64,000 nucleotides of DNA. Source: Salinimicrobium sediminis (GTDB taxonomy: Bacteria; Bacteroidota; Bacteroidia; Flavobacteriales; Flavobacteriaceae). Shown here one piece after another: positions 9,250 through 62,192 of this stretch. Both the position numbers and the translations under genes were made by a program. Below the pieces are notes generated by a model. It was not told the origin of the DNA. It did not search any database and was given only the letters and a program-made list of their open reading frames with translations. The DNA lies in NCBI RefSeq assembly GCF_900215295.1, contig NZ_OCMF01000001.1:124001-188000 (forward strand), read 5' to 3'. The stretch's first letter is position 1; each line of letters starts with the position of its first letter.

Positions 9250-9837
9250 TTGGATAAGCAGCAAATCATCAGGAACGTAGCCATTTTACTTCAGGAGATC
9301 CCTACCTCCATGGAAATTGTAAAAGACGATTCTAAAAGTAATCAGCGTTTTCATTACCTCGCAAAATATATGGTGGAAAAGGCTATTGAAAAGGATGCTT
9401 TGATCACTTCTGAAGATGGAAAAGGTATTGCTATTCTTTTTCGCACCAACAGCAAAGACAAGAACTTCTGGAAAGATCTCATCACCGATCTCAAATTGGC
9501 CTGGAACGTTACCGGAATAAAGAAAGGCCTCAAGGCCATGAAGGTGCAGGAGTATGTAAAGGCACAGCGACCAAAGGAGGGGGATTATCTATACTGCTGG
9601 TTTTGGGGAATTCTGACTGACGCCCGCGGAAGTGATGATGCCAAAACTGCGTATGATATGAAAAACCAGTTTTTTGTCATTGCCAAAGACCTGCAGCTTC
9701 CAATTTATGCCGAAACCCGTAACCGACGGATCAGCTTAGCGTACCAGCGCTACGGTTTTGAAATGTTCAATGAATGGAATCACCCAAGCGGAGATAAAAT
9801 GTACTTTTTAAGGTACTCTCCACCGGCTAAAGATTAG
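9250..9837 (+). CDS. GNAT-like N-acetyltransferase domain protein
   Basis: This protein of about 195 residues is a divergent GNAT-fold acetyltransferase. The last third has the family pattern: a mid-strand Y-C-W-F-W-G-I-L, a linker, then LPIYAETRNRRISLAYQRYGFEMFNEW, which is the acetyl-CoA-side helix and the R-x-x-x-x-Y-x-R-Y-G-F motif common in GNATs. The open frame reaches back to an ATG at 9139, but that extension (cysteine- and phenylalanine-rich) does not look like part of the domain. The TTG at 9250 is my preferred start, 18 nt after a near-consensus box TATCTTTC at 9225-9232. Start and substrate are uncertain. The stop codon opens a tandem repeat array. Confidence 0.68.
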   Translation: MDKQQIIRNVAILLQEIPTSMEIVKDDSKSNQRFHYLAKYMVEKAIEKDALITSEDGKGIAILFRTNSKDKNFWKDLITDLKLAWNVTGIKKGLKAMKVQEYVKAQRPKEGDYLYCWFWGILTDARGSDDAKTAYDMKNQFFVIAKDLQLPIYAETRNRRISLAYQRYGFEMFNEWNHPSGDKMYFLRYSPPAKD

Positions 9838-9879
9838 TGTTCAGGAATCAGTGGTCAGTGATCAGGAGTTGGAAGGTGG
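9834..9879 (+). repeat. Heptanucleotide array starting at a stop codon
   Basis: From the TAG stop at 9835 the sequence runs in 7-nt units: TAGTGTT, then CAGGAAT, CAGTGGT, CAGTGAT, CAGGAGT, TGGAAGG. The stop codon occupies the position of CAG in later units. The unit is the same as in the array at 61096-61130. Confidence 0.75.
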
Positions 9880-9941
9880 CAGTAAAGATTAAAATCAGAA
9901 ACTTTCTTTTCTCCATCGGTTTATGTGGGTAGACAATTTCC

Positions 9942-9983
9942 TTTACTCACTACTCAATACTCACTACTAACTACTCAATACTA
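9942..9983 (-). repeat. Heptanucleotide array starting at the stop of the NtrC-like gene
   Basis: Read on the minus strand from the TAG stop (9983-9981) the sequence is six 7-nt units: TAGTATT followed by variants of GAGTAGT and GAGTATT. An array with the same units follows the stop at 48529-48531. Confidence 0.8.
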
Positions 9984-11144
9984 TTTACTCGCGAATAATC
10001 TTACATCTTCTTCGCTCACTTCCTGTCCGCCAAGAATAATAAGTCGCTCCACCACGTTTCTAAGTTCCCGGATATTTCCGGTCCAGTTGTATTCCTTCAG
10101 CAGTTCGAGCGCATCATCGGTAAAGGATTTCTTATTGATTCCCTGTTCTTCAGAAATTTTTTCAGCAAAGAAATTTACAAGTAGCGGAATATCGTCCTTT
10201 CGTTCGTTAAGTCCGGGGACCTTGATAAGGATCACTGCCAGCCTGTGATAGAGATCTTCTCTGAACTTCTTGTCTTCGATCTCCTTTTTAAGATCTTTAT
10301 TGGTCGCAGCAATTACCCGCACGTCAACCTTAATATCTTTATCACTTCCAACCCTGGAGATCTTACTTTCCTGAAGGGCACGCAGCACCTTTGCCTGGGC
10401 AGAAAGACTCATATCCCCCACCTCATCCAGGAAAATAGTCCCTCCGTTTGCGGCTTCAAATTTTCCCGCACGGTCTTTAGCAGCAGAAGTGAAGGCACCT
10501 TTTACATGACCAAAGAGTTCACTCTCGATTAATTCTGAAGGAATCGCCGCACAATTCACCTCGATCATTGGGCCTGCAGAGCGATCACTCTTTTGATGCA
10601 GCCAGTGAGCTACCAGTTCTTTCCCGGTACCATTTGGTCCTGTGATAAGAACCCTCGCATCTGTAGGTGCGACTTTTTCAATAATATCTTTGATGCGGGA
10701 AATGGCTTCAGATTCTCCAACCATTTCAAGGTTTTTCCCAACCTTCTTCTTAAGTCGGGAATTTTCCACTACCAGCTCCTTACGATCTAAGGCGTTTCTC
10801 ACAGTATTCAGTAGGCGGTTAAGATCTGGCGGTTTGGAGATATAATCGAAAGCTCCCAGTCTCATGGTATTAACTGCAGTGTCAAGATCGCCATGACCCG
10901 AGATCATCACCATGGGAATTTCGGGCTTCAGCTTTTTTACTGCTTCCAGCACTTCCACCCCGTCCATCTTTGGCATCTTTATATCGCACAAAATAAGATC
11001 GTATTCCTGCTCTTTAATTTTTTCTATTCCTTCAAGTCCGTCGGTAGCTTCATCTACTTCATAAGCCTTATTTTCTTCGGTAAGGATCTTGATCAATACC
11101 CTTCTAATGGCTGCTTCGTCCTCTATCAATAAAATTTTCGGCAT
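9981..11144 (-). CDS. NtrC-family response regulator lacking the DNA-binding domain
   Basis: This 387-residue protein has a receiver domain (residues 1-120, phospho-acceptor D54 in CDIKMP, K104) and a sigma-54-type AAA+ domain (about 140-370) with Walker A GPNGTGKE (169-176) and Walker B TIFLDE (236-241). The sigma-54 contact loop reads GAFTSA (216-221) instead of GAFTGA. The chain stops just after RELRNVVERLIIL, so the usual C-terminal Fis-type helix-turn-helix (about 60 residues) is missing. It may act without site-specific DNA binding, or via a partner. It follows the outer-membrane protein gene by 4 nt, so the two form an operon. The TAG stop is the first unit of a heptamer array. Confidence 0.88.
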   Translation of the reverse strand: MPKILLIEDEAAIRRVLIKILTEENKAYEVDEATDGLEGIEKIKEQEYDLILCDIKMPKMDGVEVLEAVKKLKPEIPMVMISGHGDLDTAVNTMRLGAFDYISKPPDLNRLLNTVRNALDRKELVVENSRLKKKVGKNLEMVGESEAISRIKDIIEKVAPTDARVLITGPNGTGKELVAHWLHQKSDRSAGPMIEVNCAAIPSELIESELFGHVKGAFTSAAKDRAGKFEAANGGTIFLDEVGDMSLSAQAKVLRALQESKISRVGSDKDIKVDVRVIAATNKDLKKEIEDKKFREDLYHRLAVILIKVPGLNERKDDIPLLVNFFAEKISEEQGINKKSFTDDALELLKEYNWTGNIRELRNVVERLIILGGQEVSEEDVRLFASK

Positions 11145-11148
11145 GCTG

Positions 11149-14320: not shown

Positions 14321-14334
14321 AAATAAGGTTTGTA

Positions 14335-31615: not shown

Positions 31616-31910
31616 TCCCGAGTCGGCTGCGCCTCTCGGGATAAGCGATTCGCACAGCTTTCACACAGCGAACAAGATTTGTGAAAAAAAGATCCCGATA
31701 TCGCTATCGCTTATCGGGATAAGCAGCCTGCACCTTTTTCTCCGCCCTTCGGTTGAAAACTCTCCAAAAGAAAAGATCCCGAGTCGGCTGCGCCTCTCGG
31801 GATAAGCGATTCACACAGCTTTCACACAACGAACAAGTTTTGTGAAAATAAGATCCCGATATCGCTGCCGCTCATCGGGATAAGCGATTCGCACAGCTTT
31901 CACAAAAGTG
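31616..31910. repeat. Two and a partial copy of a 161-bp tandem unit with inner hairpins
   Basis: The 415-bp spacer between the LigD operon and icmF contains no gene. A 109-bp sequence at 31616-31724 recurs at 31777-31885 with about ten changes, and a third, truncated copy follows at 31884-31910. Each copy holds two hairpins: TCCCGAG...CTCGGGA and an ATCCCGATAT...TTATCGGGAT stem. The second stem resembles the 18-bp palindrome at 54210-54227. Confidence 0.85.
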
Positions 31911-31926: not shown

Positions 31927-34900
31927 TTACATATTTCTTCGATACTGCCCTCCTACTTCAAACAAGGCTGTGGTGATCTGGCCCAGAGAGCACACCTTCG
32001 TGGCTTCCATTAAGACCTCAAAAATATTCTCATTTTGAATGGCGGCATTTTTCACCTTTTCCAGAGTTTCATGCTCCAGTTCCTTTTTGGCCTCATGCAG
32101 GTCCTGTAAAGTTTTGATCTGGTTCTGTTTTTCCTCTTCCGTAGCTCTTATCACTTCTCCGGGAGTTACTGTTGGTGAACCGGTAGAACTCAGGAAGGTA
32201 TTTACTCCAATAATAGGGAAATCTCCATTGTGTTTCAGGGTCTCATAATAGAGACTCTCCTCCTGGATCTTACTTCTCTGGTACATGGTTTCCATAGCTC
32301 CCAGTACGCCACCTCTCTCGGTGATGCGATCAAATTCAAGAAGTACGGCTTCTTCTACAAGATCTGTAAGCTCTTCTATAATAAACGATCCCTGAATTGG
32401 ATTTTCATTCTTGGTGAGCCCCAGCTCTTTATTGATGATCAACTGAATGGCCATCGCTCTTCTTACAGAAGCTTCTGTCGGCGTAGTGATCGCCTCATCA
32501 TATGCGTTAGTGTGAAGGGAGTTACAGTTATCATAGATCGCGTAGAGCGCCTGAAGCGTTGTTCTAATATCATTGAAATCTATCTCCTGCGCGTGTAAAG
32601 ATCTTCCGGAGGTCTGGATGTGATATTTCAACATCTGCGCCCGCGGATTTGCTCCGTACTTATACTTAAGCGCCTTACTCCAGATCTTTCTCGCTACTCT
32701 TCCAATAACAGCATATTCAGGATCGATTCCGTTAGAGAAGAAGAACGACAGGTTAGGCCCGAACTTGTTGATGTCCATTCCTCGGCTCAGGTAGTATTCT
32801 ACATAAGTGAATCCGTTGGCAAGGGTTAGTGCCAGTTGGGTAATTGGATTGGCTCCTGCTTCGGCGATATGGTAACCTGAAATCGAAACTGAATAGAAGT
32901 TCCGCACATTTTCACGAATGAAATATTCCTGCACGTCTCCCATCAACCTCAACGCGAATTCCGTTGAAAAAATACAGGTATTCTGCGCCTGATCTTCCTT
33001 TAAGATATCGGCCTGTACGGTTCCCCGCACCTGGCTTAGGGTCCTCTTCTTGATATCCTCATAAATATCGGCAGGAAGCACCTGATCTCCGGTTACGCCA
33101 AGCAACATCAATCCAAGGCCATCGTTCCCTTCAGGTAACTCGCCGCGGTATTTTGGCTGCCCCATTCCTTTTTCGGAATAGATCTTGTCGATCTTTTCCT
33201 GCACTTCTTTTTCAAGGCCGTTCTCCTTAATGTATTTTTCGCACTGCTGGTCTATAGCCGCATTCATAAAAAACCCGAGCAGCATCGGCGCGGGACCATT
33301 AATGGTCATACTCACCGAAGTCATAGGATCGGCAAGATCAAAGCCTGAATACAACTTTTTAGCATCATCCAGGCAGCATATGGATACCCCTGCATTTCCG
33401 ATCTTTCCATAGATGTCGGGACGATGATCGGGATCATTTCCGTAGAGGGTAACAGAATCGAAGGCGGTGGAAAGCCTTTTGGCCGGTAAGCCCATACTCA
33501 CATAATGGAAGCGGCGGTTAGTACGCTCCGGCGAGCCTTCCCCGGCGAACATCCGGGTTGGATCCTCTCCCTGTCGCTTGAAAGGATATAGCCCTGCAGT
33601 ATATGGAAATTCCCCCGGCACATTTTCCTGCAGGCACCATCTTAAAATGTCACCCCAGGCCTGATATTTTGGAAGTGCCACTTTTGGGATCTGCGTATGT
33701 GATAAAGATTCAGTGTGGGTTTCGATCTTGATCTCCTTATCACGCACCTTAAATGAATAGATTGGATCTTTATACTTATTGACTTTATCATCCCAGCCGG
33801 TAATGATCTCCCAGTTATAGGGGTCGAGATCCATTTTTACCCGGTCAAATTCTTTTTTTAGAAGGTTTAGCAGGTCTTCATTTTCTGAAGTTGAGGCGTC
33901 CTTGAAGCCATCCTCATCAAGTCCGTACTGGTTCAGCCCCAGCTTTACTCCTGAAACTGATTCAATGGTCTTGTAAATTCCGTAGAGCTTTTGAGCCACT
34001 TCTGCCTGCGCAGCAGCTTTTTCATCGTAGGAGCGATTGTTTTCTGAAATTTCAGATAAATAGCGCGTCCTGCTAGGAGGGATCACAAAGATCTTCTCGC
34101 TCATCTCCTTAGAGATGTTGAAAGTAGAGTTAAAATGACCACCGGCTTTCTCATCGATCTTATCCATGATCTTTTTGTAAAGCGTGTTCATCCCCGGATC
34201 ATTAAATTGGGAAGCAATTGTTCCATAAACGGGAAGATTATCCGGATTTTCATGCCACAGCCCATGATTCCGCTGATATTGCTTTTTCACATCCCGCAAG
34301 GCATCAAGCGCTCCCCGTTTGTCGAATTTATTGATCGCTACAAGATCGGCGAAATCGAGCATATCGATCTTTTCCAACTGCGTAGCCGCACCAAATTCCG
34401 GTGTCATTACATATAGCGAAACATCTGAGTGCTCTAAAATTTCGGTATCAGATTGCCCGATCCCCGAAGTTTCTAAAACAATAAGATCATAATTTGCCGC
34501 TTTAAGCACCTGAATGGCTTCAGCAACATATTTGGAAAGGGCAAGATTTGATTGTCGGGTTGCCAAAGAGCGCATGTACACCCTCGGATTATTGATGGCG
34601 TTCATCCTGATACGATCTCCTAAAAGAGCACCGCCGGTCTTCTTTTTAGAAGGGTCAACAGAAATGATCCCGATCGTCTTTTCAGGGAAATCGATAAGGT
34701 AACGACGCACGAATTCATCTACCAAAGATGACTTTCCTGCACCACCCGTCCCGGTAATACCAAGAACCGGAATTTCACGCTCCTTATTTTCTGAATGTAT
34801 CTTATCAAGGGTGTCTTTGGCTACTTCCGGAAAATTTTCCGCAGCAGAGATCACCCTCGCTATCGCTCCCGGTTTCTTTTCGGCCAGCTGACTTACTTCC

Positions 34901-35358
34901 CCGTTCAGGTTGTCGCCCAAAGGATAATCTGATTGTTGTACAAGATCATTGATCATGCCCTGCAGGCCCATTTCCCGGCCATCATCGGGTGCATAGATCC
35001 TGGTGATCCCGTAATCCTGAAGTTCTTTGATCTCCTCGGGCAGGATTACTCCGCCGCCGCCGCCAAAGATCTTGATATGTCCCGCACCTTTCTCCTGCAG
35101 GAGGTCATGCATATATTTAAAATATTCGGTGTGCCCTCCCTGGTATGAGGTCATGGCAATAGCGTTGGCATCTTCCTGTATGGCGCAATTCACCACTTCT
35201 TCCACACTGCGGTCGTGGCCCAGGTGAATCACCTCCACTCCCGTGGACTGAATGATACGGCGCATAATATTGATGGCAGCATCATGGCCATCAAAAAGAG
35301 AAGCTGCAGTGACAATTCTTACTTTATTCTTGGGTTTATAAGGAGCTTGTTGTTCCAT
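31927..35358 (-). CDS. icmF: Fused isobutyryl-CoA mutase IcmF
   Basis: This 1143-residue protein has the IcmF domain order: B12-binding Rossmann domain (about 10-145, with [15 protein letters not shown] holding the cobalamin His), MeaI-type GTPase (about 195-410, Walker [10 protein letters not shown] and NKFD), then the TIM-barrel mutase domain (about 540-1143, with [14 protein letters not shown] and [14 protein letters not shown]). It interconverts isobutyryl- and n-butyryl-CoA, and related acyl-CoAs in some lineages, using adenosylcobalamin. The DxHxxG motif has Ala for Gly, which I recall as usual for IcmF. It is monocistronic. MeaB at 0.1 kb is a separate chaperone. Confidence 0.95.
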
Positions 35359-36243: not shown

Positions 36244-36334
36244 CAAGGTTTAAGGTTTAAGGTTTAAGGTTTAAGGTTTAAGGTTTAAGGTTTAAGGTTT
36301 AAGGTCGAAAATTCAATATTCAATATTCAATATT
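36241..36334 (+). repeat. Two heptanucleotide arrays: (TAAGGTT)8.7 and (TTCAATA)3
   Basis: From 36245 to 36305 the sequence is 8.7 near-perfect copies of AAGGTTT, starting at the stop of the DUF4197 gene. After a 6-nt break a second array of TTCAATA runs 36312-36334. Nothing else was seen between here and the promoter at 36489. Confidence 0.95.
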
Positions 36335-48381: not shown

Positions 48382-48531
48382 ATGAAAAAGAAATTTTTCA
48401 GACAGCTTTCAAAACTCAACAAAAAACTCTTACCCAGTTACAGTAAACAACAGCTGGATCTTGCCAAAGCCACAAAACTTCAGAAGGCAATTATAGGATG
48501 GAAACTGTGGGTGACGAAGAATGCTTTATAG
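48382..48531 (+). CDS. Small conserved basic protein of 49 residues
   Basis: This short gene encodes a lysine-rich, helical protein starting MKKKFFRQLSKLNKKLLPSY and ending LQKAIIGWKLWVTKNAL. I recall similar 48-50-residue proteins in flavobacteria, some mis-annotated as SsrA-binding proteins, with the conserved KATKLQ-AIIGW core. No function is established. It has a near-consensus promoter. Its TAG stop is the first unit of a heptamer array. Confidence 0.75.
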   Translation: MKKKFFRQLSKLNKKLLPSYSKQQLDLAKATKLQKAIIGWKLWVTKNAL

Positions 48532-48620
48532 TATTGAGTATTGAGTAGTGAGTAGTGAGTAGTGAGAAAGTTATGAGTTATCAGTTGTCAGTTATCAGTT
48601 GTCAGTTATGAGTTGTGAGT
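48529..48620 (+). repeat. Two heptanucleotide arrays after a stop codon
   Basis: From the TAG stop at 48529 the units TAGTATT, GAGTATT and three GAGTAGT follow in register (to 48563). After a 7-nt break, seven units of the form T(A/G)T(C/G)AGT run 48572-48620. The rest of the spacer to 49016 has only a GCCGC hairpin and the CCGAAAAGTTTTCGG palindrome (48938-48952). Confidence 0.9.
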
Positions 48621-49016
48621 TCAGATACCGGTTTTGAATTTTTAAATTTTGCCGTGAAACACGCTGTTGCCTAAGAAAGTCACGCTGAACCTGACTGCAG
48701 GGAGGAAGGTCTTATGTTTTTTTCTGCTGCAATTTTCCCTCATACTCCACATCCTCCTTCCAGGAGCAGTTAAGTTTATAAAGGAGGAGAAGAAGATTGA
48801 AATAATCCTGAATTTTAAATCCTAATCATAAGTAAGCCGCTGCGCGGCTCCCGTTAAACCTCCGTTAAAGTAGGAATTGCAATACGAAAGCTTTTGTACA
48901 TTTATTAGATAATCGGCAGTAAAGGCTTTGGAAACCCGAAAAGTTTTCGGTTTTACTGTGAAAGCACAACCAAAAAATTTAACCAGCAGCCTAAAATGCT
49001 GCACAAACTAACAATT

Positions 49017-49305: not shown

Positions 49306-49489
49306 GAAGTTAGAAAGACGAAGTTAGAAGTACGAAGTGGGGGGATTAGGGATTAGGGATTAGGGATTAGGGATTAGGGATTAGGGATTAGGGATTAGGG
49401 ATTAGGGATTAGGGATTAGGGAAAATAAAAAACCTAACCAATCCCAATTAACCACTCCCCAATTAACCAATCACCAGTTAACCAATTAT
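49306..49489. repeat. Three adjacent short tandem arrays before the four-helix gene
   Basis: First array: five GAAGTTA-like units (49306-49340). Second: 11.6 copies of GGGATTA (49342-49422), almost perfect. Third: about 3.7 units of a 15-nt repeat of the form AACCAATCCCAATT (49436-49489). Together they fill the upstream spacer up to 10 nt before ATG 49500. Confidence 0.95.
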
Positions 49490-49499: not shown

Positions 49500-49868
49500 A
49501 TGGCTGAGAATTTTGAAAAGCTACAATGTTGGCAGGTATGTAATGAACTAAAAATTTACATCAGAACCATAATACTTCCTTCTTTGCCAAAAACGGAACG
49601 ATTCGAATTGTATACCCAATTATTGCGAGCTTCAAGATCAGCTACAGCAAATATTGCTGAAGGTTGGGGAAGATATCATTATAAAGAAAACATCAAATTT
49701 CTTCTGAATGCCCGCGGCTCAGTAGCAGAGGTATTGGATCACAGCCTGGAAGCAAAAGGTTGGAATTACATCTCAGATAAAAACCTGCAAAACATCCGCC
49801 TCCAAACTGAATCCTGTATAAAACTGATTAATGGATATATTAAGTACCTTAGAAATCAAGGAGAGTAG
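49500..49868 (+). CDS. Four-helix bundle (S23-like) protein
   Basis: This 122-residue helical protein carries the family motif: FEKLQCWQVCNELKIYI at the start, LPKTERFELYTQLLRASRSATANIAEGWGR (AEG core) and LNARGSVAEVLDHSLEA. TIGR02436/S23-like proteins were first seen inside 23S rRNA intervening sequences and elsewhere near diversity-generating elements, often in multiple copies; the fold is a pentameric four-helix bundle thought to bind nucleic acid. No rRNA is nearby. The gene is enclosed by tandem arrays, and its TAG stop is the first unit of one. Confidence 0.9.
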   Translation: MAENFEKLQCWQVCNELKIYIRTIILPSLPKTERFELYTQLLRASRSATANIAEGWGRYHYKENIKFLLNARGSVAEVLDHSLEAKGWNYISDKNLQNIRLQTESCIKLINGYIKYLRNQGE

Positions 49869-49910
49869 GGATTGGAGAATAGGAATTATGAATTAGAAAT
49901 CAGGAATAGA
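49866..49910 (+). repeat. Heptanucleotide array starting at the four-helix gene stop
   Basis: Six in-register units TAGGGAT, TGGAGAA, TAGGAAT, TATGAAT, TAGAAAT, CAGGAAT beginning at the TAG stop. Confidence 0.85.
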
Positions 49911-49935
49911 AAAATGAATTTATCTGTCTCCATTT

Positions 49936-49980
49936 AACTCAACACCAATCAACTAATCACCAATTCACCAATTAACTAAT
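49936..49980. repeat. 15-nt tandem repeat upstream of the SDR gene
   Basis: Three units of the form AACTAATCACCAATT (49936-49950, 49951-49965, 49966-49980), similar to the 15-nt unit at 49436-49489, ending 13 nt before the SDR ATG. Confidence 0.7.
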
Positions 49981-49993
49981 AACAAATCAAAAA

Positions 49994-50766: not shown

Positions 50767-51260
50767 GGTTCAAGGTTTAAAGTTCAAGGTTGTTACAGGA
50801 TGCAGGTTCAATTGGTGCGGGTTTAAAAAGCTATTAGCTCTTGGCTTTTGGCCATTGGCTTTTTTACGTCTTTGCGAAGGAGCTTCTCTGCGATTGAAGC
50901 AATCTCCTCCTCGAAAAACGGAAAGATCACTGCTAGATCCTCTCCCCTTTTTTCGGGATTCAAATATTGGTAGTTGCCCAAAAAGCTATTAGCTCTTGGC
51001 TTTTGGCCTATGGCTTTCTTACGTCTTTGCGAAGGAGCTTTTCTGCGACTGAAGCAATCTCCTTCTCGTGAAACGGAATAGGTAATGTACAGCCTCTCCG
51101 AAACTTTTTCCTGTTTTGCCCTTGCCCTATCTTGAAGGTTCGGGAGGAACCGGGAAAAAAGTTGGCAGTGCTCAGTGATCTTGAAAGCTTTTGGTTGTTG
51201 GCTGTTAGCTTTTAGCTTTTTTTATTTTGAGGCCTTTGCGCGCTTTGCGAGAAAGATTTC
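50767..51260. repeat. Repeat-filled 590-bp spacer with a duplicated 95-bp segment
   Basis: No gene is seen between 50750 and 51339. Features: four GGTTCAA-type heptamers (50767-50794); a 95-bp segment at 50825-50921 with a second copy at 50980-51076, each holding TTGGCTT-type heptamers and a TTGCGAAGGAGC...GAAGCAATCTCCT block; GCTTTTG-type heptamers at 51187-51221; and a GCCTTTGCGCGCTTTGCGAG block (51231-51250) like the GxxExxY repeat. Confidence 0.8.
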
Positions 51261-51984: not shown

Positions 51985-52067
51985 CTAGTATTGAGTAGTG
52001 AGAAAAAGCTTTTGGCCTTTAGCCTTTAGCTTTTGGCTTTTTCCGTTATCAGTTGTCGGTTGTCGGT
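51982..52067 (+). repeat. Three short heptanucleotide arrays
   Basis: Two AGTATTG/AGTAGTG units (51987-52000) just after the TAG stop, five GCTTTTG/GCCTTTA units (52008-52042), and three TATCAGT/TGTCGGT units (52047-52067). The remainder of the 327-bp spacer to 52311 shows nothing recognisable. Confidence 0.85.
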
Positions 52068-52311
52068 TTATTCGGTTACACTCAAATCCCTAAATACCGA
52101 CTTGCTATTACATACTGCTGAATATATTCCTGGTTGCGGTTTCTTCTTATCATCTCAACAGAGTTTTTTTCGGCAGAAAGAAGGCACGTTGAGCAATCTC
52201 ATTTTTTCGTCTTTTGGCTTTTGTTCCCGTGTACGGTGATCAGTAGAAAACGAACTTAATTATTGTTAACTGTTCCCTGATCATTGAAAATTAAAAAGTC
52301 TTGGCTCTAAT

Positions 52312-53607: not shown

Positions 53608-53687
53608 CGTTTTTTGGAACGAATTAATTTCAATGAATGGTCGATCGGAGTCGAGACCTCATGATGGTATTTTTTCCTTATTTGCAT

Positions 53688-53793
53688 GACTATCCCTTTT
53701 TCCGGTTCACTTTAGGTCCGGTGCCACCGGAAAAAGAAAAACTAATTCTTTTGCCCCTCCCTAAAGGGTGAGAATTAGTTTTTCCTAAATTTA
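53688..53793. repeat. Hairpin-bearing direct repeat, left copy (DUF559 cassette)
   Basis: The segment starts GACTATCCCTTTTTCCGG and ends CCTAAATTTA. It contains an outer CTTTTTCCGG...CCGGAAAAAG stem and an inner perfect 13-bp stem (53737-53749 with 53771-53783). A second copy is at 54182-54301. Confidence 0.9.
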
Positions 53794-53795
53794 TT

Positions 53796-54209
53796 GTGGT
53801 GAAGAAAGATAATCCATATCATGATAATAGCATGTGGAAAGGTGCTCGATCTGAGATCTTTAAGCGGGCAGAGTATCTTCGCCACAATCCTACAGAGGCA
53901 GAAAAAGTTCTGTGGGAGAAATTAAATTGTGATCCCTATAAAAAATATCATTTCAGGAGACAACATCCTATATATCATTTCATTGCCGACTTCTATTCGC
54001 ATAGGCTAAAATTGATTATAGAATTAGATGGAGGTTATCATGAAAAAGAAGACCAACAGAAGAAAGACGAAATACGCACAGATCTGCTCAGTTTTCAGGG
54101 GCTGGATATCATCCGTTTCACAAATCAGGAGGTAATGGAGAACATGGAAACAGTTCTAAAAACACTAGAAGAAAAAATTAAGACTATCCCTTTTTCCGGC
54201 TCCCTTTAG
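53796..54209 (+). CDS. DUF559 endonuclease-domain protein (Vsr/PD-(D/E)XK-like)
   Basis: This 137-residue protein has the DUF559 pattern: RAEYLRHNPTEAEKVLWEKL, HFRRQHPIYHFIADFY and the catalytic core LIIELDGGYHEKEDQQKKDEIR (E-x-D-G...H) in a very-short-patch-repair-like fold, then FTNQEVMENMETVL. Usually in several copies per genome, function unproven. It starts from GTG (53796, or GTG 53799). Its last residues, from T-I-P-F-S-G-S-L, and stop are encoded by the right repeat copy, and the gene begins 3 nt after the left copy. Confidence 0.87.
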   Translation: MVKKDNPYHDNSMWKGARSEIFKRAEYLRHNPTEAEKVLWEKLNCDPYKKYHFRRQHPIYHFIADFYSHRLKLIIELDGGYHEKEDQQKKDEIRTDLLSFQGLDIIRFTNQEVMENMETVLKTLEEKIKTIPFSGSL

Positions 54210-54301
54210 TCCCGATAGCTATCGGGAGGGGCAACCGGAAAAAGAAAAACTAATTCTTTTGCCCCTCCCTAAAGGGTGAGAATTAGTTTTACCTAAATTT
54301 A
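54182..54301. repeat. Hairpin-bearing direct repeat, right copy (DUF559 cassette)
   Basis: Copy of 53688-53793, with an 18-bp perfect palindrome TCCCGATAGCTATCGGGA (54210-54227) in place of the left copy's loop, and a 12-bp stem (54246-54257 with 54279-54290). A third, decayed copy lies at about 54330-54377. Confidence 0.9.
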
Positions 54302-54375: not shown

Positions 54376-54416
54376 GAAGCTTTACTTCATCACTCCGTTA
54401 CTTCATTACTACATCA
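54376..54416 (-). repeat. Octanucleotide array starting at the O-methyltransferase stop
   Basis: On the minus strand from the TGA stop (54416-54414): TGATGTAG, TAATGAAG, TAACGGAG, TGATGAAG, TAAAGCTT. Every unit begins with a stop trinucleotide. Confidence 0.8.
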
Positions 54417-55058
54417 CCGTATTCTCCTCGAAATAGTCAACCCATCCCTCACCGGTAACATCACCGTCTCCAGCCTGTCATCTTCAACCAACAACCGGTT
54501 GTATTCCAACAAGGCTTTGGTAGATTCATCATCTTCCTGCACGGGTTCTACTACTTTTCCGCTCCAAAGAACATTATCCGATAGGATCACTCCTCCCGGC
54601 CGCAGCTTTTCCATGATCTGTTGAAAGTAAACAGGATAATTCGGCTTATCTGCATCAATAAACACCAGGTCGAAATCCTCTTTTAGAGAGGGAATGATCT
54701 CTGTAGCATCTCCAAGATGCTGCACGATCTGCTCTTTCCGGGGAGAGGCTTCAAAATACCTTTTTTGAAGATCTATTAGCTCTTCGTTGATATCGATGGT
54801 GTGAAGGATTCCGTCCGACCTCATGCCTTCTGCCAAACAAAGTGCCGAATACCCGGTATAGGTACCTATTTCCAGAATATTTTTTGGATTGATCAGCTTC
54901 GACAGCATACTCAGCAGCCGCCCCTGGTAATGTCCGCTTAACATTCGTGGCTGTAATACCTTCTGATTAGTTTCCCGGTTGAGTTGCTGCAGCAATTCGG
55001 GTTCTTTAGATGAGTGTTGAACTACGTAATCATCGATGGCTTGTGGCAGGAAATGCAT
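54414..55058 (-). CDS. Class I SAM-dependent O-methyltransferase
   Basis: This 214-residue enzyme matches the Methyltransf_3 (caffeoyl-CoA/catechol O-methyltransferase) family: ILEIGTYTGYSALCLAEG (SAM site), HTIDINEELIDLQ, DLVFIDADKPNYPVYFQ (metal-binding Asp) and GGVILSDNVLWSGKV. It methylates a catechol-like hydroxyl with Mg2+. Its true substrate in this organism is unknown. The 5' side is a heptamer array (55065-55092) 6 nt before the ATG, so no conventional promoter was seen. Confidence 0.92.
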   Translation of the reverse strand: MHFLPQAIDDYVVQHSSKEPELLQQLNRETNQKVLQPRMLSGHYQGRLLSMLSKLINPKNILEIGTYTGYSALCLAEGMRSDGILHTIDINEELIDLQKRYFEASPRKEQIVQHLGDATEIIPSLKEDFDLVFIDADKPNYPVYFQQIMEKLRPGGVILSDNVLWSGKVVEPVQEDDESTKALLEYNRLLVEDDRLETVMLPVRDGLTISRRIR

Positions 55059-55064: not shown

Positions 55065-55092
55065 AGTATTGAGAAGTGAGTATTGAGTATTG
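55065..55092. repeat. Heptanucleotide array in the 5' region of the O-methyltransferase
   Basis: Four units AGTATTG, AGAAGTG, AGTATTG, AGTATTG. The same unit family occurs after the stops at 9981 and 48529. Confidence 0.85.
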
Positions 55093-55235
55093 AGAGGTCA
55101 AAAATACAATTTTTGAGAATCTGGAGCCTAGAGACGAAAGACTAGAATTTATACTTTTTCTGCTACAATTATTGTTTAGAATTTGGTCCTCCCCGGCTGA
55201 ACCTCTAACGGATAAAATCATCGAGACTAAAAGAT

Positions 55236-55257: not shown

Positions 55258-55505
55258 CGGGGTATAATAAAAAGGATGTTTCAATTATTGAAAGAAGCAG
55301 ATTGCTTCTTTCGCTATAAAGCTATTTTTCTGTGTAAACAATCTTACAAAAACGTAACGATTCAAATCCAAAAGCACTTCGACTTTTCCTCCTGCTACCG
55401 CATTCGGGCTCAGTGTAACATCCAAAAAATTAGAATTTGGGGGTGGAAAGCAGGAATGGTAGAGATAAAAATAACAGATGTAATAACCTTAATTTTATGA
55501 AGTTG

Positions 55506-55540
55506 AAAGCCAAAGACCAAAAGCTATAAGCTAATGGCTA
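55506..55540 (-). repeat. Heptanucleotide array starting at the tatA stop
   Basis: On the minus strand from TAG (55540-55538): TAGCCAT, TAGCTTA, TAGCTTT, TGGTCTT, TGGCTTT, all in register with the stop codon. Confidence 0.85.
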
Positions 55541-55938: not shown

Positions 55939-56333
55939 GCTGCGCACCTCCTGCGGAGGGATTTGTCTCCGGACCACCCCGTCTGCCTGCGGCAGCCACC
56001 CCTCCTTATTAAGGAGGGGAACTTCTGAGGTGCCTTTGGCACCACTGCCTTCGGCAGGTTTCTGCCCGAAAAGTCAACTTATATGAATACTATTAGTCTA
56101 CTACAAATAAGAGCGAAAATTGGAATCCAACTATCTCCCCTTCTTCGGAAGGATTGGGAGATAAGGAAAAAAGAGAACCAGGCCTGCTTTGTTGCCCAAG
56201 TTGTTTTTTCGGCTGCTGCGCACCTCCTGCGGAGGGATTTGTCTCCGGACCACCCCGTCTGCCTGCGGCAGCCACCCCTCCTTATTAAGGAGGGGAACTT
56301 CTGAGGTGCCTTTGGCACCACTGCCTTCGGCAG
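55939..56333. repeat. 119-bp identical direct repeats within an 812-bp gene-free spacer
   Basis: Copies at 55939-56057 and 56215-56333 look identical over 119 bp. The sequences between and after them (56080-56145, 56365-56425) are diverged copies of each other, so the unit is about 276 bp. Each copy holds a CCCCTCCTT-ATT-AAGGAGGGG hairpin and a CTGCCTTCGGCAG stem. An inverted relative is at 56543-56610. Confidence 0.92.
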
Positions 56334-56452
56334 ATTTTCGGCTCGAAATGGCAACCAAAATCTGTACTACTGGCTACTTCAAATAAGGGCCAAATTTTAA
56401 TTCCAATCAGCTCCCCTCCTTTGGAGAGGGCGGGGGGAGGATGAGCACAAAA

Positions 56453-56480
56453 AAAACCCTCTAAAAGAGGGTTTTCTTTA
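56453..56480. terminator. Bidirectional terminator-like hairpin downstream of the M1 peptidase gene
   Basis: AAAACCCTCT/AGAGGGTTTT stem (56453-56462, 56466-56475) with an A run on one side and T run on the other. Two more hairpins follow, at 56486-56505 (CTCCTCCC/GGGAGGAG) and 56515-56535 (AAAACACCT/AGGTGTTTT). Confidence 0.7.
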
Positions 56481-56542
56481 AATTTAATTCCGGAGCCTCC
56501 TCCCAAAGGGAGGAGAAAACACCTTCAGGTGTTTTGAACCCC

Positions 56543-56630
56543 AACCGGCTCCCCTCCTTTTTTAAGGAGGGGTGGCAGGCGATAGCCTGACGGGGTGGTC
56601 CGGAGACGACACCGCCACAGGCGGCAAGGT
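56543..56630. repeat. Inverted, diverged copy of the 119-bp repeat core
   Basis: Contains CCCCTCC-TTTTTTA-AGGAGGGG and GACGGGGTGGTCCGGAGAC, the complement of the core of the direct repeats at 55939 and 56215. It ends at the stop of the M1 peptidase gene. Confidence 0.8.
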
Positions 56631-56631: not shown

Positions 56632-58941
56632 TTACTGCTGGGTTTTCTCTTTGAATTCCTGAAACTTATCTGCTTCAGCAGCCTGTGGCCATGAATTGTT
56701 GCTGGTATCAACATCGGCAGTTTCAAGATCGGGATCAACCACGATCTTTGTGATCTCTTTGTCTGTTGCCAAAGCTCTGCTAACCTGTGTGTCATTCTTT
56801 CTCCAGATCTGTACAGGATAAGTCACTTTTTCAGTACTGCCATCGGCATAAGTGTATTCCACAATGATAGGCATTACAAGTCCACCCGGTTTATTGAAGG
56901 TTACCTGGTAAAAATACTTCGGCATCTTCATCTCTGCTCTTTGCTGCGGAGTAAAATTGTCCATCAGGTATTCATTCAATGTAGGTGCATTTTCAGCAGG
57001 AGTCTTGCCTTTCATGCTCTCATTGTACTCTTCACCGCCTTCTTCTACCACGTAAAGCACATCCATGGAAGATGGATCTTCCACGCCGTAACGCTTCAGC
57101 AGTTCAGTTCCTTCTTTCGTAGGCTTATCGGTCACATAATATTTTTTCACTTCCTCCACGCCTATATCTACAAAGTCGGTAGTATAGAACCAGCCTCTCC
57201 AGAACCAGTCAAGATCAACGGCAGACGCATCTTCCATTGTTCTGAAAAAATCTTCAGGGGTAGGGTGTTTAAACATCCATCTCTGAGCATAAGTTTTAAA
57301 GGCATGATCAAACAGCTCTCTTCCCATCACAGTTTCGCGAAGGATATTTAGTGCAGTAGCCGGCTTTCCGTAGGCATTGTTCCCTAACTGATATACATTT
57401 TCTGGATTTGACATGATGGGGGAAATAAATGATTGATCACCCTTCATATAATCCACAATTCTTGCAGGCTCTCCTCTTCTGGAAGGATATTTAGTGTGCG
57501 GCGCAATATCCTCAGGATATTTATCACCATACTCCTGCTCGGCCACATATTGCATGAAAGTATCAAGACCTTCATCCATCCAGCCCCACTGGCGCTCATC
57601 TGAATTCACGATCATAGGGAAAAAGTTGTGCCCTACTTCATGGATGATCACGCTCATCATTCCGTACTTCACACGGTCGCTATAAGTTCCGTCCTCATTA
57701 GGCCTTCCATAGTTCCAGGAGATCATAGGATATTCCATTCCTTGGTTCTTGGCATGTACCGAAATGGATTTCGGGTAAGGGTAGGTAAAAGTGTGATCTG
57801 AATAAGATTTTAAAGTATGAGCAACCACTTTAGTAGAAAAATCTTCCCAAAGCGGATTACCTTCTTTTGGATATAAAGAAACAGCCATTACATCTTTTTC
57901 TCCCAGGTCAACAGCCATCATATCCCAGATGAATTTTCGGGAAGTAGCGAATGCAAAATCCCTTACCATTTCAGCTTTCAGTTTCCAGGTCTTTTTCTTG
58001 TCAGAAAAACCTTTTTCAGCAGCTTCAGCTTCTTCCTGGGTTACGATCATTACCGGCTTGTCGTAAGATTTTTTAGCCTGCTCATAGCGACGCATCATTT
58101 CCTTTGAAAAAACTTCCTTGCGGTTTACCAATTCCCCGGTTCCATCAAGCACATGGTCTGCAGGTACAGTAATATTCACTTCGTAATCTCCAAACGGAAG
58201 TGCAAACTCCCCATTCCCCCAAAACTGGTAATTCTGCCAGCCTTCTACATCATTATAAACTGCCATTCTTGGAAAGAACTGTGCAATTACGTAAGCGTTG
58301 TTACCGTCTTTCGGAAAATGCTCATAACCCGACCGCGCTCTGTCAGTCACGTGATTATTGACATTATACCACCATGCAATGTCAAAAGTGAACTTTTCTC
58401 CTGCCTTTAATGGCTGCGGAAGATCCACTCTCATCATAGTTTGGTTGATAAAAGTCTTCAGTGGCTGCCCATTGGCACTCACCTCTGTAATATTAAAACC
58501 TCCGTCAAAAGGCTCCTGCATATATTCATCCACGAAATTTCCTGGTTGCGCCACCGGGGCAATTCCATTGCCGTCCTTTAGCTTAGCCACAGATTCTTTG
58601 GTGCGGATATTTTGATCCAACTGCACCCACAGGTATTCGAGATCATCGGGGGAATTATTGTGATAGGTAATGGTTTCGCGGCCGGTTAGCTTCTGAGTCT
58701 TATCATCAAGCTCGATATCCATTTTATAATCGGCCTCATTTTGATAATAGGCAGGGCCGGGAGCACCGCTACCCGTGCGGTACTGGTTAGGGGTAGAAAA
58801 TTCCTGGTAAAGTTGACGGAATTTATTTTCATTGATGTGTCCCCCTTCCCTCTGCTCGGTTTGTTGTTCTGTTTCCTGGGCAAAAACGCCGGCAGAGAAC
58901 AAAATGAAAAAAGCCGCAAGGGCAGTTTTAATAGATCTCAT
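56632..58941 (-). CDS. Exported M1-family metallopeptidase
   Basis: This 769-residue protein has a signal peptide (to GVFAQ). The aminopeptidase-N-like N-terminal beta domain is followed by the catalytic domain: QGMEYPMISWNYG (replacing GAMEN), zinc site HEVGHNFFP (HExxH) with the third ligand in WMDEGLDTFMQ 19 residues later. M1 enzymes remove N-terminal residues from peptides; an extracytoplasmic location is expected. The DUF6702 gene lies 55 nt upstream and is probably cotranscribed, a pairing often seen in this group. Confidence 0.93.
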   Translation of the reverse strand: MRSIKTALAAFFILFSAGVFAQETEQQTEQREGGHINENKFRQLYQEFSTPNQYRTGSGAPGPAYYQNEADYKMDIELDDKTQKLTGRETITYHNNSPDDLEYLWVQLDQNIRTKESVAKLKDGNGIAPVAQPGNFVDEYMQEPFDGGFNITEVSANGQPLKTFINQTMMRVDLPQPLKAGEKFTFDIAWWYNVNNHVTDRARSGYEHFPKDGNNAYVIAQFFPRMAVYNDVEGWQNYQFWGNGEFALPFGDYEVNITVPADHVLDGTGELVNRKEVFSKEMMRRYEQAKKSYDKPVMIVTQEEAEAAEKGFSDKKKTWKLKAEMVRDFAFATSRKFIWDMMAVDLGEKDVMAVSLYPKEGNPLWEDFSTKVVAHTLKSYSDHTFTYPYPKSISVHAKNQGMEYPMISWNYGRPNEDGTYSDRVKYGMMSVIIHEVGHNFFPMIVNSDERQWGWMDEGLDTFMQYVAEQEYGDKYPEDIAPHTKYPSRRGEPARIVDYMKGDQSFISPIMSNPENVYQLGNNAYGKPATALNILRETVMGRELFDHAFKTYAQRWMFKHPTPEDFFRTMEDASAVDLDWFWRGWFYTTDFVDIGVEEVKKYYVTDKPTKEGTELLKRYGVEDPSSMDVLYVVEEGGEEYNESMKGKTPAENAPTLNEYLMDNFTPQQRAEMKMPKYFYQVTFNKPGGLVMPIIVEYTYADGSTEKVTYPVQIWRKNDTQVSRALATDKEITKIVVDPDLETADVDTSNNSWPQAAEADKFQEFKEKTQQ

Positions 58942-59500: not shown

Positions 59501-59595
59501 GTAGTGTAAGTCTGAAGTCACTTCTGTTTAAACAAAGACTGTTCCACAGACATAATTCTTAGACTGCAGCAGGAGGAGAAGGTTTAATTCCGGAA

Positions 59596-59623
59596 GAAAC
59601 AAGAATCAAGAAACTAGAACCAA
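59596..59623. repeat. Heptanucleotide array GAAACAA type
   Basis: Four units GAAACAA, GAATCAA, GAAACTA, GAACCAA. Confidence 0.8.
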
Positions 59624-59644
59624 GACTTTGATTCTTGTCCTGTT

Positions 59645-59666: not shown

Positions 59667-59718
59667 GACTTTTAAAAATAAACGAATTAGTACCATCAAT
59701 TAGCTTATGCACCCCAAT

Positions 59719-59988
59719 GCCCTTCGACCAGCTCTCCTTCTGGTCGAGCGCTCAGGGTGACATTTCTCTATAGAACCTAGAGTCTAGAGTCTAGAGACAA
59801 GACTTTTTTAACAGTTGTCAGGTTGAGCTATTTTCACGTCCGGGAGGGCGGGGAAATTTGGTTGAAACTGGTTAATGCCCACTAATTGGTTCTGTACATC
59901 AAAGCCCTTCGACCAGCCCTCTCTCTGGTTGAGCGCTCAGGGTGACATTTCTCTATAGAACCTAGAGACTATAGTCTAGAGACAAGAC
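59719..59988. repeat. 85-bp direct repeats with inner heptamer arrays
   Basis: Copies at 59719-59803 and 59904-59988 (about ten differences). Each begins with CCCTTCGACCAG...CTGGT(C/T)GAGCGCTCAGGGTGACA, a hairpin-forming segment, and ends in four TAGAACC/TAGAGTC heptamers (59771-59798; 59956-59983). No gene was seen in the 566-bp spacer. Confidence 0.88.
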
Positions 59989-60041
59989 ATTGCACAAATT
60001 GGAATTTGAAGTGTGATCCCTGGAATTTGGTTCAAGGCTCA

Positions 60042-60090
60042 CTGCTCATTAGTGATTGTTTATTGATAATTGTTTATTGCTAATTGTTCA
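60042..60090 (-). repeat. Heptanucleotide array starting at the stop of the exported-protein gene
   Basis: On the minus strand from TGA (60090-60088): TGAACAA, TTAGCAA, TAAACAA, TTATCAA, TAAACAA, TCACTAA, TGAGCAG. Seven units, all in register with the stop codon. Confidence 0.85.
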
Positions 60091-60894
60091 CTTGGCATTG
60101 AACTTCGCGCTCTGCTCCAGCAGGAACTCAATTAGATCCATCTCCTTTTCTTTATCCAGAAGCCTGGAAGGAAATCCTAAAGCATTTAAATAGGTAATAA
60201 AATTGCTGATTTGCCGGATTTGAATATCCAATACCTCTTCAAAAAACTCATTATCGTAGCGGCTTCTTATTTCCTTTTCAAGATTGATCATTCCTCTTTG
60301 GTTCAGCGGAGAAGGAGGGCGTTCTTTTGCCTTTTTTGGAGGAAAGATCATCCCGACTATACCACCGATTATGGCTAATGGATCAGCTCCGTTGGTCAAT
60401 CCCGGTCCAGGCATACCAACATTTGTCACGGCAGATTGTCCGTCCTGCCTCCATTCATACTCATAATCATTAATAGAAGCCGCGGTCATTGAGGGTAGAT
60501 CCAATTTGATTGTTTCAATATTTCCGGCATCCACATCCAAATTCCCTGTGAGTTCATGAGGTTTCACGACAACTTCGGGTAAATCATTAATATTTTCTAT
60601 AATTTCCACATTCAAAGTCCTGCTCTTTAAAGTCTGCTCATCTATAACGAAGAGCAGATCTTTATACTGAAGTGCCGAAAAATATAAGGAGTCATTTAAC
60701 TTTGCGTAGATACTGAAGTTGCCTTTTTCTGATGACACACTCCCCTTTCCGGAGTTTTTATTATAGATCGTAATTCCCTGAAGATCGGCTTCCGCAGGAA
60801 CTTTTATAGTACCTTCAATCTCCACCTCCCCAAATGACTGAGCAGCCGAACATGTGGTAATTATCAGAAAAATTAGAAGCAGCAGGTTCTTCAT
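60088..60894 (-). CDS. Exported CarboxypepD_reg-like domain protein, paralog 1
   Basis: This 268-residue protein has a signal peptide (to AAQS), a beta-sandwich resembling the carboxypeptidase regulatory-like domain (about 25-115: I-E-G-T-I-K-V-P...G-I-T-I-Y-N-K-N-S-G-K-G-S-V-S-S-E-K-G-N-F), then LPEVVVKPHELTGNLDVDAGNI and a helical C-terminal half with a central proline-rich turn. It is paralogous with the gene at 61128-61913. Such domains often occur at the N terminus of TonB-dependent receptors, but no receptor follows. Function unknown. Confidence 0.85.
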   Translation of the reverse strand: MKNLLLLIFLIITTCSAAQSFGEVEIEGTIKVPAEADLQGITIYNKNSGKGSVSSEKGNFSIYAKLNDSLYFSALQYKDLLFVIDEQTLKSRTLNVEIIENINDLPEVVVKPHELTGNLDVDAGNIETIKLDLPSMTAASINDYEYEWRQDGQSAVTNVGMPGPGLTNGADPLAIIGGIVGMIFPPKKAKERPPSPLNQRGMINLEKEIRSRYDNEFFEEVLDIQIRQISNFITYLNALGFPSRLLDKEKEMDLIEFLLEQSAKFNAK

Positions 60895-61095
60895 CCAGGA
60901 TCAATAACGGGAAAATGTAGGAAATATTTTACACTAAGGCTGCCAGGATATTCTCATTTGTGCTTTAACCTAAATCTCGTCCCTATGGGATTTCTATCTT
61001 GTGTTGAGAATGTTTCTACCAATCATTTGGCCCTACAGTACAGATTGGTATTTAGAGTTTGAACTTAATTCACTACCCCTCGGCCACATTTTTCC

Positions 61096-61130
61096 CTGAA
61101 CACTGCTCACTGCTCACTGATCACTGATCA
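61096..61130 (-). repeat. Heptanucleotide array starting at a stop codon
   Basis: On the minus strand from TGA (61130-61128): two TGATCAG, two TGAGCAG, one TGTTCAG unit. The same unit as after the stop at 9835. Confidence 0.9.
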
Positions 61131-61913
61131 CTTATTATCTGCCTTTTTCTCCCTGTAACGTTGACTCTGTTTTACAAGAAAATCAATAAGTTGCAGCTCG
61201 TTTTCTTCCTTCAGCATTTGTGGAGAAAGACCATTATCTTCAGCAAAATAGATGAATTCATAAATATTATCTTTCTCAATATTTAAATTCTCCCTGAAAA
61301 AGTCATCATCATAAAGCTGTAGTACCTGTTCATCCAGGTCTTCATTTCCACCTATATTGGTCATGACGCTTCGGGTGGTAAAGATGTTCCTGAAAATGTT
61401 GGCAAAATTAGTTCCGTTATAGATCATAGCTTCCCTCATCGCCGCATTTGCCGGTGAAGTAAGAGAATCGGGTCGAAAAGTATACTCGTAAGAATTGATC
61501 TCGGCTGCCGATTGCGTGGGAAGATTAATTTCCGCTACAGGAATTCGTGCCACGTCAACCTCAACATTCCCGGATAGATCATAAGGAGTCACCACGACTT
61601 CCGGCAACTCGGTTACAGATTCAGAAATAAATACATTGAGCTGTTGGTTTTCTACTACCCCCTTATCAATTACAACCGAAAAATCCTGATATTGTAAAGC
61701 AGCAAAATCCAGTGTATCTCCCGCAGCCACTCTAATATTAAAATTTCCGGCTTCATTGGAAATAGTGGCCGACTTTGCAGTACGGTTAATTATAGAAATG
61801 CCCTGGGGATCTTCTCCCAGTGGCGGAGTGATCTTTCCGCTGATGGCTAACCGCTCCTGGGCAATCAGACTTACCGAAAAAAAGAAAATTGTAATGTAGA
61901 GAAGACTTTTCAT
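61128..61913 (-). CDS. Exported CarboxypepD_reg-like domain protein, paralog 2
   Basis: This 261-residue exported protein (signal to LIAQE) shares the whole layout of paralog 1: beta-sandwich with GISIINRTAKSATISNEAGNF, LPEVVVTPYDLSGNVEVDVARI, LPTQSAAEINSYEY and a C-terminal helical domain with DDFFRENLNIEKDNIYEFI. Identity looks moderate (roughly one third to one half in the shared core), so the duplication is old. The two genes are in the same orientation, 233 bp apart. Role unknown. Confidence 0.85.
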   Translation of the reverse strand: MKSLLYITIFFFSVSLIAQERLAISGKITPPLGEDPQGISIINRTAKSATISNEAGNFNIRVAAGDTLDFAALQYQDFSVVIDKGVVENQQLNVFISESVTELPEVVVTPYDLSGNVEVDVARIPVAEINLPTQSAAEINSYEYTFRPDSLTSPANAAMREAMIYNGTNFANIFRNIFTTRSVMTNIGGNEDLDEQVLQLYDDDFFRENLNIEKDNIYEFIYFAEDNGLSPQMLKEENELQLIDFLVKQSQRYREKKADNK

Positions 61914-61985
61914 GATGCTGCTTTTCTTAAAGAAACAAAATCAATTCTTTATAAAAATCTAATTGCCGACTAAACTTTAGTTAAA

Positions 61986-62192
61986 GGTGGGATGGGGATT
62001 GGTTAATTGGGGATTGGAAAAATGGGAATTAGGGATTAGGAAATGGCTTTTAGAATGGAATTAATACTACTCAAGTCAGCAGACTTTAAGGTTTTCTCGA
62101 GGCCCCAACAAGAGAGCCCGGTAACCGGAAACCGGAAACAGCAAACAGAAATACGGTCTCTAAATCCTGAATTTTGAATCCTGAATTTTGAA
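61986..62192. repeat. Three heptanucleotide arrays in the spacer before peptidase E
   Basis: A degenerate GGGATTG/TTAGGGA series (61986-62046), four CCGGAAA-type units (62118-62145), and two copies of the pair TCCTGAA-TTTTGAA (62165-62192). No gene is seen from 61914 to 62269. Confidence 0.8.

Follow-up and report, generated by a model that had tools for sequence, protein, structure and literature searches.

Intergenic heptamer arrays of Salinimicrobium sediminis as probable ends of a small cassette carrying an S23 gene

Why should short tandem arrays with a constant period of 7 nt, and with units that differ from site to site, lie dispersed between the genes of a bacterium and often open at stop codons? 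The question is raised by a stretch of 64,000 nucleotides of Salinimicrobium sediminis (contig NZ_OCMF01000001.1, positions 124,001 to 188,000 of the forward strand; the window hereafter, numbered from its first letter). Our answer involves S23 (PF05635/TIGR02436, "23S rRNA intervening-sequence protein"): the arrays are probably the ends, and probably also the solitary ends, of a small cassette, 5′ array–S23–inverted 3′ array, that sits between genes. Heptamer arrays are known piecemeal from cyanobacteria, xanthomonads, Beggiatoaceae and Bacteroidetes, and no common cause has linked them; S23, for its part, is a protein family whose function is unknown. Tying arrays to S23 gives each a partner and poses a concrete, testable question of binding.

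Inverted heptamer arrays flank many S23 genes

The longest array of the window, (GGGATTA)11.6 at 49342, adjoins an S23 gene. The features of this site, with arrays called by Tandem Repeats Finder (TRF), are:

49306–49488, plus strand: 5′-side arrays of the S23 gene, GAAGTTAGAAAGAC x2.4, GGGATTA x11.6, then a C-rich array of CCAATTAA type (TRF, sequence)
49500–49868, plus strand: S23/four-helix-bundle gene (PF05635), putative cassette cargo (Pfam 86.8 bits, E 1.4e-24; whole-genome search 86.4 bits)
49860–49987, plus strand: 3′-side arrays, the first spanning the S23 stop TAG at 49866–49868 (TRF, sequence)
within 49860–49987, plus strand: second 3′-side array, C-rich CACCAATCAACTAA, reaching the next start at 49994

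A profile search of the whole host genome (3.48 Mb, 8 contigs) yielded 10 S23 genes, and seven S23 proteins of subset A1 matched TIGR02436. By eye, most host S23 genes sit between two arrays with reverse-complement units, the unit differing from gene to gene (for example GCTCAGTGGTCAG / ACTGATCACTGACCACTGATCACT at locus L005 and GGGTTGC / CAACCCG at L008).

The flanks were scored over 130 nt on each side. The inverted-repeat (IR) score is the best local alignment of the upstream flank with the reverse complement of the downstream flank, and the lag-7 score is the best lag-7 segment of each flank. The full criterion (IR of at least 13 and lag-7 of at least 8 on both flanks) was reached by 6/10 host S23 genes and 0/623 other genes, the cut-offs having been chosen on these data and then fixed. 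Results by set were:

Set A, all 69 Bacteroidota loci found, including the 10 host loci that set the cut-offs: full criterion 24/69, IR of at least 13 alone 37/69
Set B, 60 further Bacteroidota loci picked by hand: full 28/60, IR alone 37/60
Set C, the best 80 of 565 relatives in a genome collection, 79 used: full 33/79, IR alone 60/79
Set D, 6 of 9 plasmid hits (five cyanobacterial, one Gemmatirosa): full 2/6, IR alone 3/6
Set E, 19 of 30 further loci of the set C genomes, 11 duplicates of set C being omitted: full 11/19, IR alone 12/19
Set F, from the phylum of Rhizobium, 29 new loci of which 28 were used (the other lay at the end of a contig): full 16/28, IR alone 19/28

When the later sets B, C, E and F were pooled, 88/186 loci reached the full criterion compared with 1/265 other Bacteroidota genes (20 stretches of 20 S23-carrying genomes), and the IR threshold alone was reached by 128/186 loci and 4/265 background genes. 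Mismatched flanks, taken from different cassettes, reached IR 13 in 3–5% of pairs in sets A–C and in 0/30 in set D. Lag 7 was the top period among 4–23 in sets A–D. Going by the titles of their records, the set C loci at or above IR 13 included ones from Lyngbya, acidobacteria, Victivallales, Verrucomicrobia, Planctomycetota, Anaerolineae, Thermoflexia, Nitrospirota, Omnitrophica, Kiritimatiellaeota, several candidate-phyla bacteria, Bosea and Rhizobium. The association of S23 genes with arrays, and the inversion of the latter, were thus observed directly, and we regard the association as virtually certain.

In Bacteroidota the cassette is usually part of a run of genes that all point the same way, and is itself sense-oriented within it. 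S23 and both near neighbours were co-directional at 57/60 (set A) and 49/53 (set B) loci, 106/113 in total, compared with 90/148 and 189/336 background triplets (56–61%). Neighbours were called by open reading frame (ORF) length at the S23 loci and by a codon-usage caller in the background; with the latter caller set A gave 62/65. In set C, where neighbour calls are crude, 41/57 loci were co-directional, and the neighbours of five annotated cyanobacterial plasmid S23 genes were likewise co-directional. Median gaps in set A were 57 nt upstream and 48 nt downstream of S23, and the GC skew over 100 nt was +0.30 upstream and −0.12 downstream, with values of about zero for 630 other genes.

The 5′ arm begins near the upstream stop and tends to carry one TYAG-NNN per 7 nt, and the 3′ arm is its inverted counterpart. 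A 7-position profile of 101 5′ arms read T-Y-A-G-N-N-N with 2.51 bits (eight column permutations: mean 1.73, maximum 1.77), 98 3′ arms gave the complementary motif with 2.30 bits versus at most 1.81 when permuted, and AG was the dinucleotide most in register above control. Median arm length was 36 nt, or about five units; the peak at four to five units can be taken only as a hint, because detection requires about three. At the thiolase site, where 20 of the 21 loci in the S23 tree were compared (L003 left out), an arm matched its own partner better than the arms of other cassettes in 16/20 loci (p 3e-4), and in 9/9 loci of one family.

The window also holds a stand-alone DUF559 gene (53796–54209) that lies, by eye, between two similar direct repeats of ~100–120 nt (53684–54300), each with an internal palindrome (AAACTAATTCTTTTGCCCCTCCCTAAAGGGTGAGAATTAGTTTT). 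A control was made with 19 stand-alone DUF559 loci of 30, 5 of which were lost near contig ends; inverted flanks were seen at 4/14 and arrays on both sides at 0/14, and DUF559 was dropped as a second cargo.

Solitary arrays, stop codons and polarity

The original prediction counted more than 25 arrays in the window. TRF (score 30) returned ~23 separate arrays of period 7, 14 or 21 and a few of period 8 or 15: the pattern is real, and the count was slightly high at the thresholds used. A stricter lag-match scan found 13 intergenic and 0 coding period-7 arrays in the window, and 0 in 30 dinucleotide shuffles of it. In a host sample of 864 kb (the window and 40 stretches of 20 kb each, with 511 gaps of 10 nt or more), period 7 accounted for 51 intergenic arrays, period 6 for 2 and period 8 for 6; periods 14 and 21 appeared as harmonics of 7. 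Coding sequence held 6 period-7 arrays and shuffles 0.6 (mean of 5), so that period 7 is strongly over-represented between genes, as had been proposed. Being dispersed over the host, these tandem 7-nt arrays belong to the class of heptameric intergenic repeats (short tandemly repeated repetitive sequences or heptameric simple sequence repeats). Gaps with arrays were convergent in 14 cases, co-directional in 19 and divergent in 6; the corresponding numbers for comparison gaps of at least 40 nt were 69, 290 and 98.

The eight stops that had been named as array-borne (9835, 9981, 48529, 49866, 55538, 60088, 61128 and 54414) are indeed TAG or TGA, and by eye each opens an array. Among 52 host arrays, the array beside the window S23 gene having been removed, 14 started within 6 nt of a stop; when positions in the gaps were drawn at random, the number averaged 3.1 and never exceeded 10 over 2000 trials. 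Neither uniform start phases nor a period 7 no commoner than 6 or 8 was seen. TAG was the stop at 8/14 near-stop solo arrays and at 31/63 5′ arms of S23 genes, versus 151/658 in the host background; the second comparison is rough, the arms being mostly from other genomes. Of 30 arms beginning close to a stop, 13 had the T of the stop as the Y of YAG, and 11 of these 13 belonged to the 16 arms with a TAG stop; because TAG fits YAG, part of this register is built in.

The near-stop solo arrays carry the motif of the S23 5′ arms. Sense polarity past stops was observed directly in 28 such host arrays, 22 of which had G>C, 5 C>G and 1 a tie; AG was in register at 0.67 on their sense strand (control 0.43) and at 0.17 on the other strand (control 0.27).

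Stop-anchoring had been put forward as something not known before. It is already published: the G-rich heptamer repeats of Xanthomonas and Nostoc that lie on the sense strand favour positions within 50 bp of a stop, those on the antisense strand the 50 bp upstream of an ORF, and some overlap the stop itself (PMC4692102); TAACTGA arrays overlap stops, with forward repeats giving stops in all three frames (PMC4679880).

The remaining arrays of the window are:

9832–9865, plus strand: solo array on TAG 9835, CAGTGAT-type units on the sense strand (TRF, sequence)
9942–9990, minus strand: solo array on the TAG of gene 9981–11144 (minus strand), TAGTATT GAGTAGT and so on (TRF, sequence)
36245–36334, plus strand: solo arrays AAGGTTT x8.7 and ATTCAAT x3.4, 3′ of gene 35539–36243 (TRF)
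48530–48621, plus strand: arrays AGTATTG/AGTAGTG and AGTTATC/AGTTGTC past TAG 48529 of a small ORF (TRF, sequence)
50767–51220, plus strand: degenerate heptamer arrays GGTTCAA, GCTTTTG, AGCTTTT (TRF, sequence)
52007–52068, plus strand: solo arrays AGCTTTT x5 and GTTGTCG x2.4 (TRF)
54380–54416, minus strand: octamer array on TGA 54414 of gene 54414–55058 (sequence, bounds by eye)
55065–55094, plus strand: array AGTATTG x4.3 (TRF)
55500–55540, minus strand: array TAGCCAT TAGCTTA TAGCTTT on TAG 55538 (sequence, bounds by eye)
59594–59625, plus strand: array AAGAAAC x4.6 (TRF)
59777–59796, plus strand: array CTAGAGT x2.9 (TRF)
60055–60090, minus strand: array on TGA 60088 of gene 60088–60894 (TRF, sequence)
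61096–61132, minus strand: array TGATCAG TGATCAG TGAGCAG on TGA 61128 of gene 61128–61913 (TRF, sequence)
61992–62195, plus strand: arrays ATGGGGATTGGAAAA x2.6, CCGGAAA x3.1 and AATCCTGAATTTTG x2.4 (TRF)

Other repeats were noted in the window. A 78-nt unit is repeated 3.4 times with 64% matches at 31636–31904, directly downstream of a large minus-strand gene (31927–35358). By eye, a palindrome segment (CCCTTCGACCAGC...GTCGAGCGCTCAGGG) followed by TAGAGTC-type repeats is present twice at 59712–59985. GC-rich palindromic repeats occupy the gap ahead of gene 56632–58941 (55940–56620), where one segment of more than 100 nt occurs, by eye, in two nearly identical copies.

Persistence, proposed working and rival explanations

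S23 was present in 157/198 sampled Bacteroidota genomes and in 52/299 genomes of the phylum of Rhizobium, with up to 16 copies per genome. Presence and absence at one site were seen directly between ffh and folD, where 9/12 congeners carry the cassette and 3 have empty gaps of ~50–120 nt; no arrays were seen by eye at these three sites, two of which belong to genomes that are only 74–75% complete. In a tree of 122 of the 129 proteins of sets A and B, the 21 thiolase-site copies cluster across families and require 5 changes versus a shuffled mean of 19.6, so that the cassette appears to stay at its site for long. The 8 host copies in the tree are diverged and mostly scattered. Gaps with arrays numbered 0/228 in six S23-null genomes and 7/223 in 20 S23 genomes (one-sided p 0.007). 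We saw no transposase in the cassette, although no search for identical copies was made.

How might such a cassette work? TRAP is a ring protein that reads regularly spaced AG-containing triplets. The Xanthomonas S23 protein is a pentameric toroid (PMC4990558). Given a pentamer, about five YAG units per arm and a co-directional gene string, the simplest specific model is a ring in which each subunit takes one unit. The string around S23 would be co-transcribed, and the homopentameric toroid would bind an arm, as single-stranded RNA or single-stranded DNA, in a TRAP-like manner. Binding would compete with arm pairing, and could thereby protect or process the S23 message and tune the next gene. 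The arms would probably be regenerated in the DNA itself, through slippage and template switching, and a solo array would be an arm that stayed behind or was put in place without a gene. That the S23 ring binds the arms is a tentative prediction. Going further, and a speculative step that we rather doubt, a pan-bacterial class of operon-resident element might exist in which the pentameric ring, reading some five YAG heptads in each arm, on its own transcript or on single-stranded DNA, maintains the arrays and controls flanking genes. This one system would then take the form of dispersed heptamer arrays, of TAACTGA repeats or of rRNA intervening sequences.

Several results weigh against the cassette and its proposed working. 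The window's own S23 gene does not show the inversion (IR 8, direct score 19.5), and both of its flanks hold G-rich and C-rich arrays. Of the later loci, 98/186 fell short of the full criterion and 58/186 of the IR threshold. The gene background is Bacteroidota only; the control for set C is mismatched pairs, and sets E and F stand without phylum-matched genes. At the plasmid loci of set D the full criterion was reached in 2/6 and the IR threshold in 3/6, yet arrays are visible by eye in 6/6. The 7-nt period is not universal, because several cassettes among loci L247–L261 and L282, mostly of Bacteroidales, have GAAGTTA-like units and an arm period of 8–9 nt. The own-partner match at the thiolase site was better in only 2/7 loci of the Flavobacteriaceae subset, and arm covariation at ffh-folD was not clear (diagonal mean 17.6, off-diagonal 16.0). 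Array number was uncorrelated with the number of S23 copies in the 20 stretches compared (rho −0.03), and solo arrays far exceed S23 genes, with 52 in a quarter of the host genome. In published work, Nostoc is said to have few inverted heptamer pairs and the Xanthomonas unit GGGAATC is without AG (PMC4692102), and the authors of the Coxiella study suggest that the cell produces no S23p in vivo and that the RNA is the more important of the two (PMC4990558), which speaks against a model centred on the protein in that organism. Finally, arm pairs of 168 loci held fewer G.U than A.C pairs (208 vs. 262, p 0.014). With no G.U excess, a selected stem in the sense RNA is unsupported, and renewal of the arms at the DNA level is favoured.

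The last point also serves an account that stays wholly at the DNA level, which is compatible with the cassette and which we consider possible without leaning towards it. Here the arrays would arise by replication slippage and the inverted arms by quasipalindrome template switching, with no RNA function; YAG/CTR may reflect preferred primase start sites, and S23 would merely tolerate or stabilise the arrays, for example by hairpin binding. Arms that match their own partner while units differ among cassettes fit such an origin, as does a host genome with 0 matches to the PF00078 reverse transcriptase (on which count a reverse transcriptase, a retroelement or a diversity-generating retroelement (DGR) was dropped as the mover). 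Indels between two Cyanothece strains occur mostly in 7-nt steps, according to a study that also cites a polymerase-slippage proposal (PMC4679880). What this account leaves unexplained is one protein family between the arms in many phyla, and its sense orientation within gene strings. Slippage seeded at gene ends, one of the two functions offered in the original prediction, does not by itself account for a single gene family bracketed by inverted arms whose units match. It is doubtful, in our estimate, that the arrays are instead made by the host as elements of its transcripts, such as terminators, insulators, G-quadruplexes or sites of translational control, and that S23 is a hitch-hiker inserting preferentially into pairs of them. 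Most solo arrays lack S23, arrays prefer gene 3′ ends with sense polarity, and most heptamer repeats are transcribed (PMC4692102), all of which such elements would account for; the array-free empty ffh-folD sites and S23-null genomes speak against them.

An actively hopping selfish element of the insertion sequence (IS) or miniature inverted-repeat transposable element (MITE) kind is improbable. Presence/absence at ffh-folD within one genus and the high copy number in some genomes are what it would produce, but the diverged and scattered host copies, the clustering of thiolase-site copies across families and a cassette in which no transposase was seen are at odds with it. The back-up stop, the other function originally offered, is not the best reading of the stop-anchored arrays, and we give it hardly any weight. 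The frequent starts at stops and the enrichment of TAG there do agree with it. However, the 3′ arms, which precede the next gene, are oppositely oriented (CTRA), many a TAG stop is simply the first YAG copy of its array, the stop density follows from the YAG motif, and arrays pair around S23 genes. An anti-phage defence system was also dropped: the seven S23 proteins of subset A1 matched 0 PADLOC families at E 0.01. The window S23 protein had 0 relatives among 50,697 phage records at E 0.001.

The cassette offers a caution for operon annotation, since an S23 gene inside an operon may be a passenger and not a component of the system encoded there. On a plasmid of Picosynechococcus sp. PCC 7003 (locus L145, 1995–2351), an S23 gene with inverted arrays lies between cas10 and cmr3 of a type III-B CRISPR operon, and its 5′ array overlaps the cas10 end. 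A CRISPR survey names a "23S rRNA IVP" in a figure legend (PMC10910872); given the cas10–S23–cmr3 locus, that case may be a passenger too.

Comparison with known systems

The published heptamers of Xanthomonas and Nostoc (PMC4692102) and the TAACTGA repeats of Beggiatoaceae, cyanobacteria and five Bacteroidetes (PMC4679880) share with the arrays described here the 7-nt period, the mostly intergenic location, the overlap with stops and the polarity, sense past stops and antisense ahead of starts. Inverted heptamer pairs are common in Xanthomonas (PMC4692102). Those studies follow one unit type per genome, whereas here the units vary from site to site, and their main texts make no mention of S23. 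In our literature search, thin on subscription journals and preprints, only the Coxiella paper (PMC4990558) joins S23 and heptamer repeats.

The cargo protein has sequence relatives in the S23/four-helix-bundle proteins 2gsc (XCC0516; profile E 6e-36) and 2rld (E 1e-13), with no array context or nucleic-acid ligand in the accounts consulted. Distant similarity to the DGR accessory protein Avd (NF033474) was seen in 4/7 S23 proteins (best E 4e-9); one tabled S23 member scored 33 bits against a cut-off of 80, in a host without the PF00078 reverse transcriptase. TRAP has another fold and another ring number than S23, and is an analogy only, for the proposed way of working.

The closest likeness is to the 23S rRNA intervening sequence (IVS) of Coxiella, which carries an S23 ORF and a terminal stem, is excised by RNase III and has tandem GACAGAT heptamers ahead of the S23 start (PMC4990558). 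In both, an S23 ORF is looped by terminal inverted repeats in the transcript (for the cassette, as predicted from its arms), and the GACAGAT heptamers recall the cassette arrays. The cassette class shares the S23 protein and the terminal inverted repeats, the window copy with its low IR score excepted; no rRNA match was found in 40 S23 loci (20 of set C, 20 of set F; Rfam, gathering score). Unlike the IVS, cassettes lie between protein genes, have arms that are arrays and often occur in multiple copies. The cassette looks like a protein-operon counterpart of the 23S rRNA intervening sequence, a resemblance that would extend the intervening-sequence concept from rRNA to protein operons.

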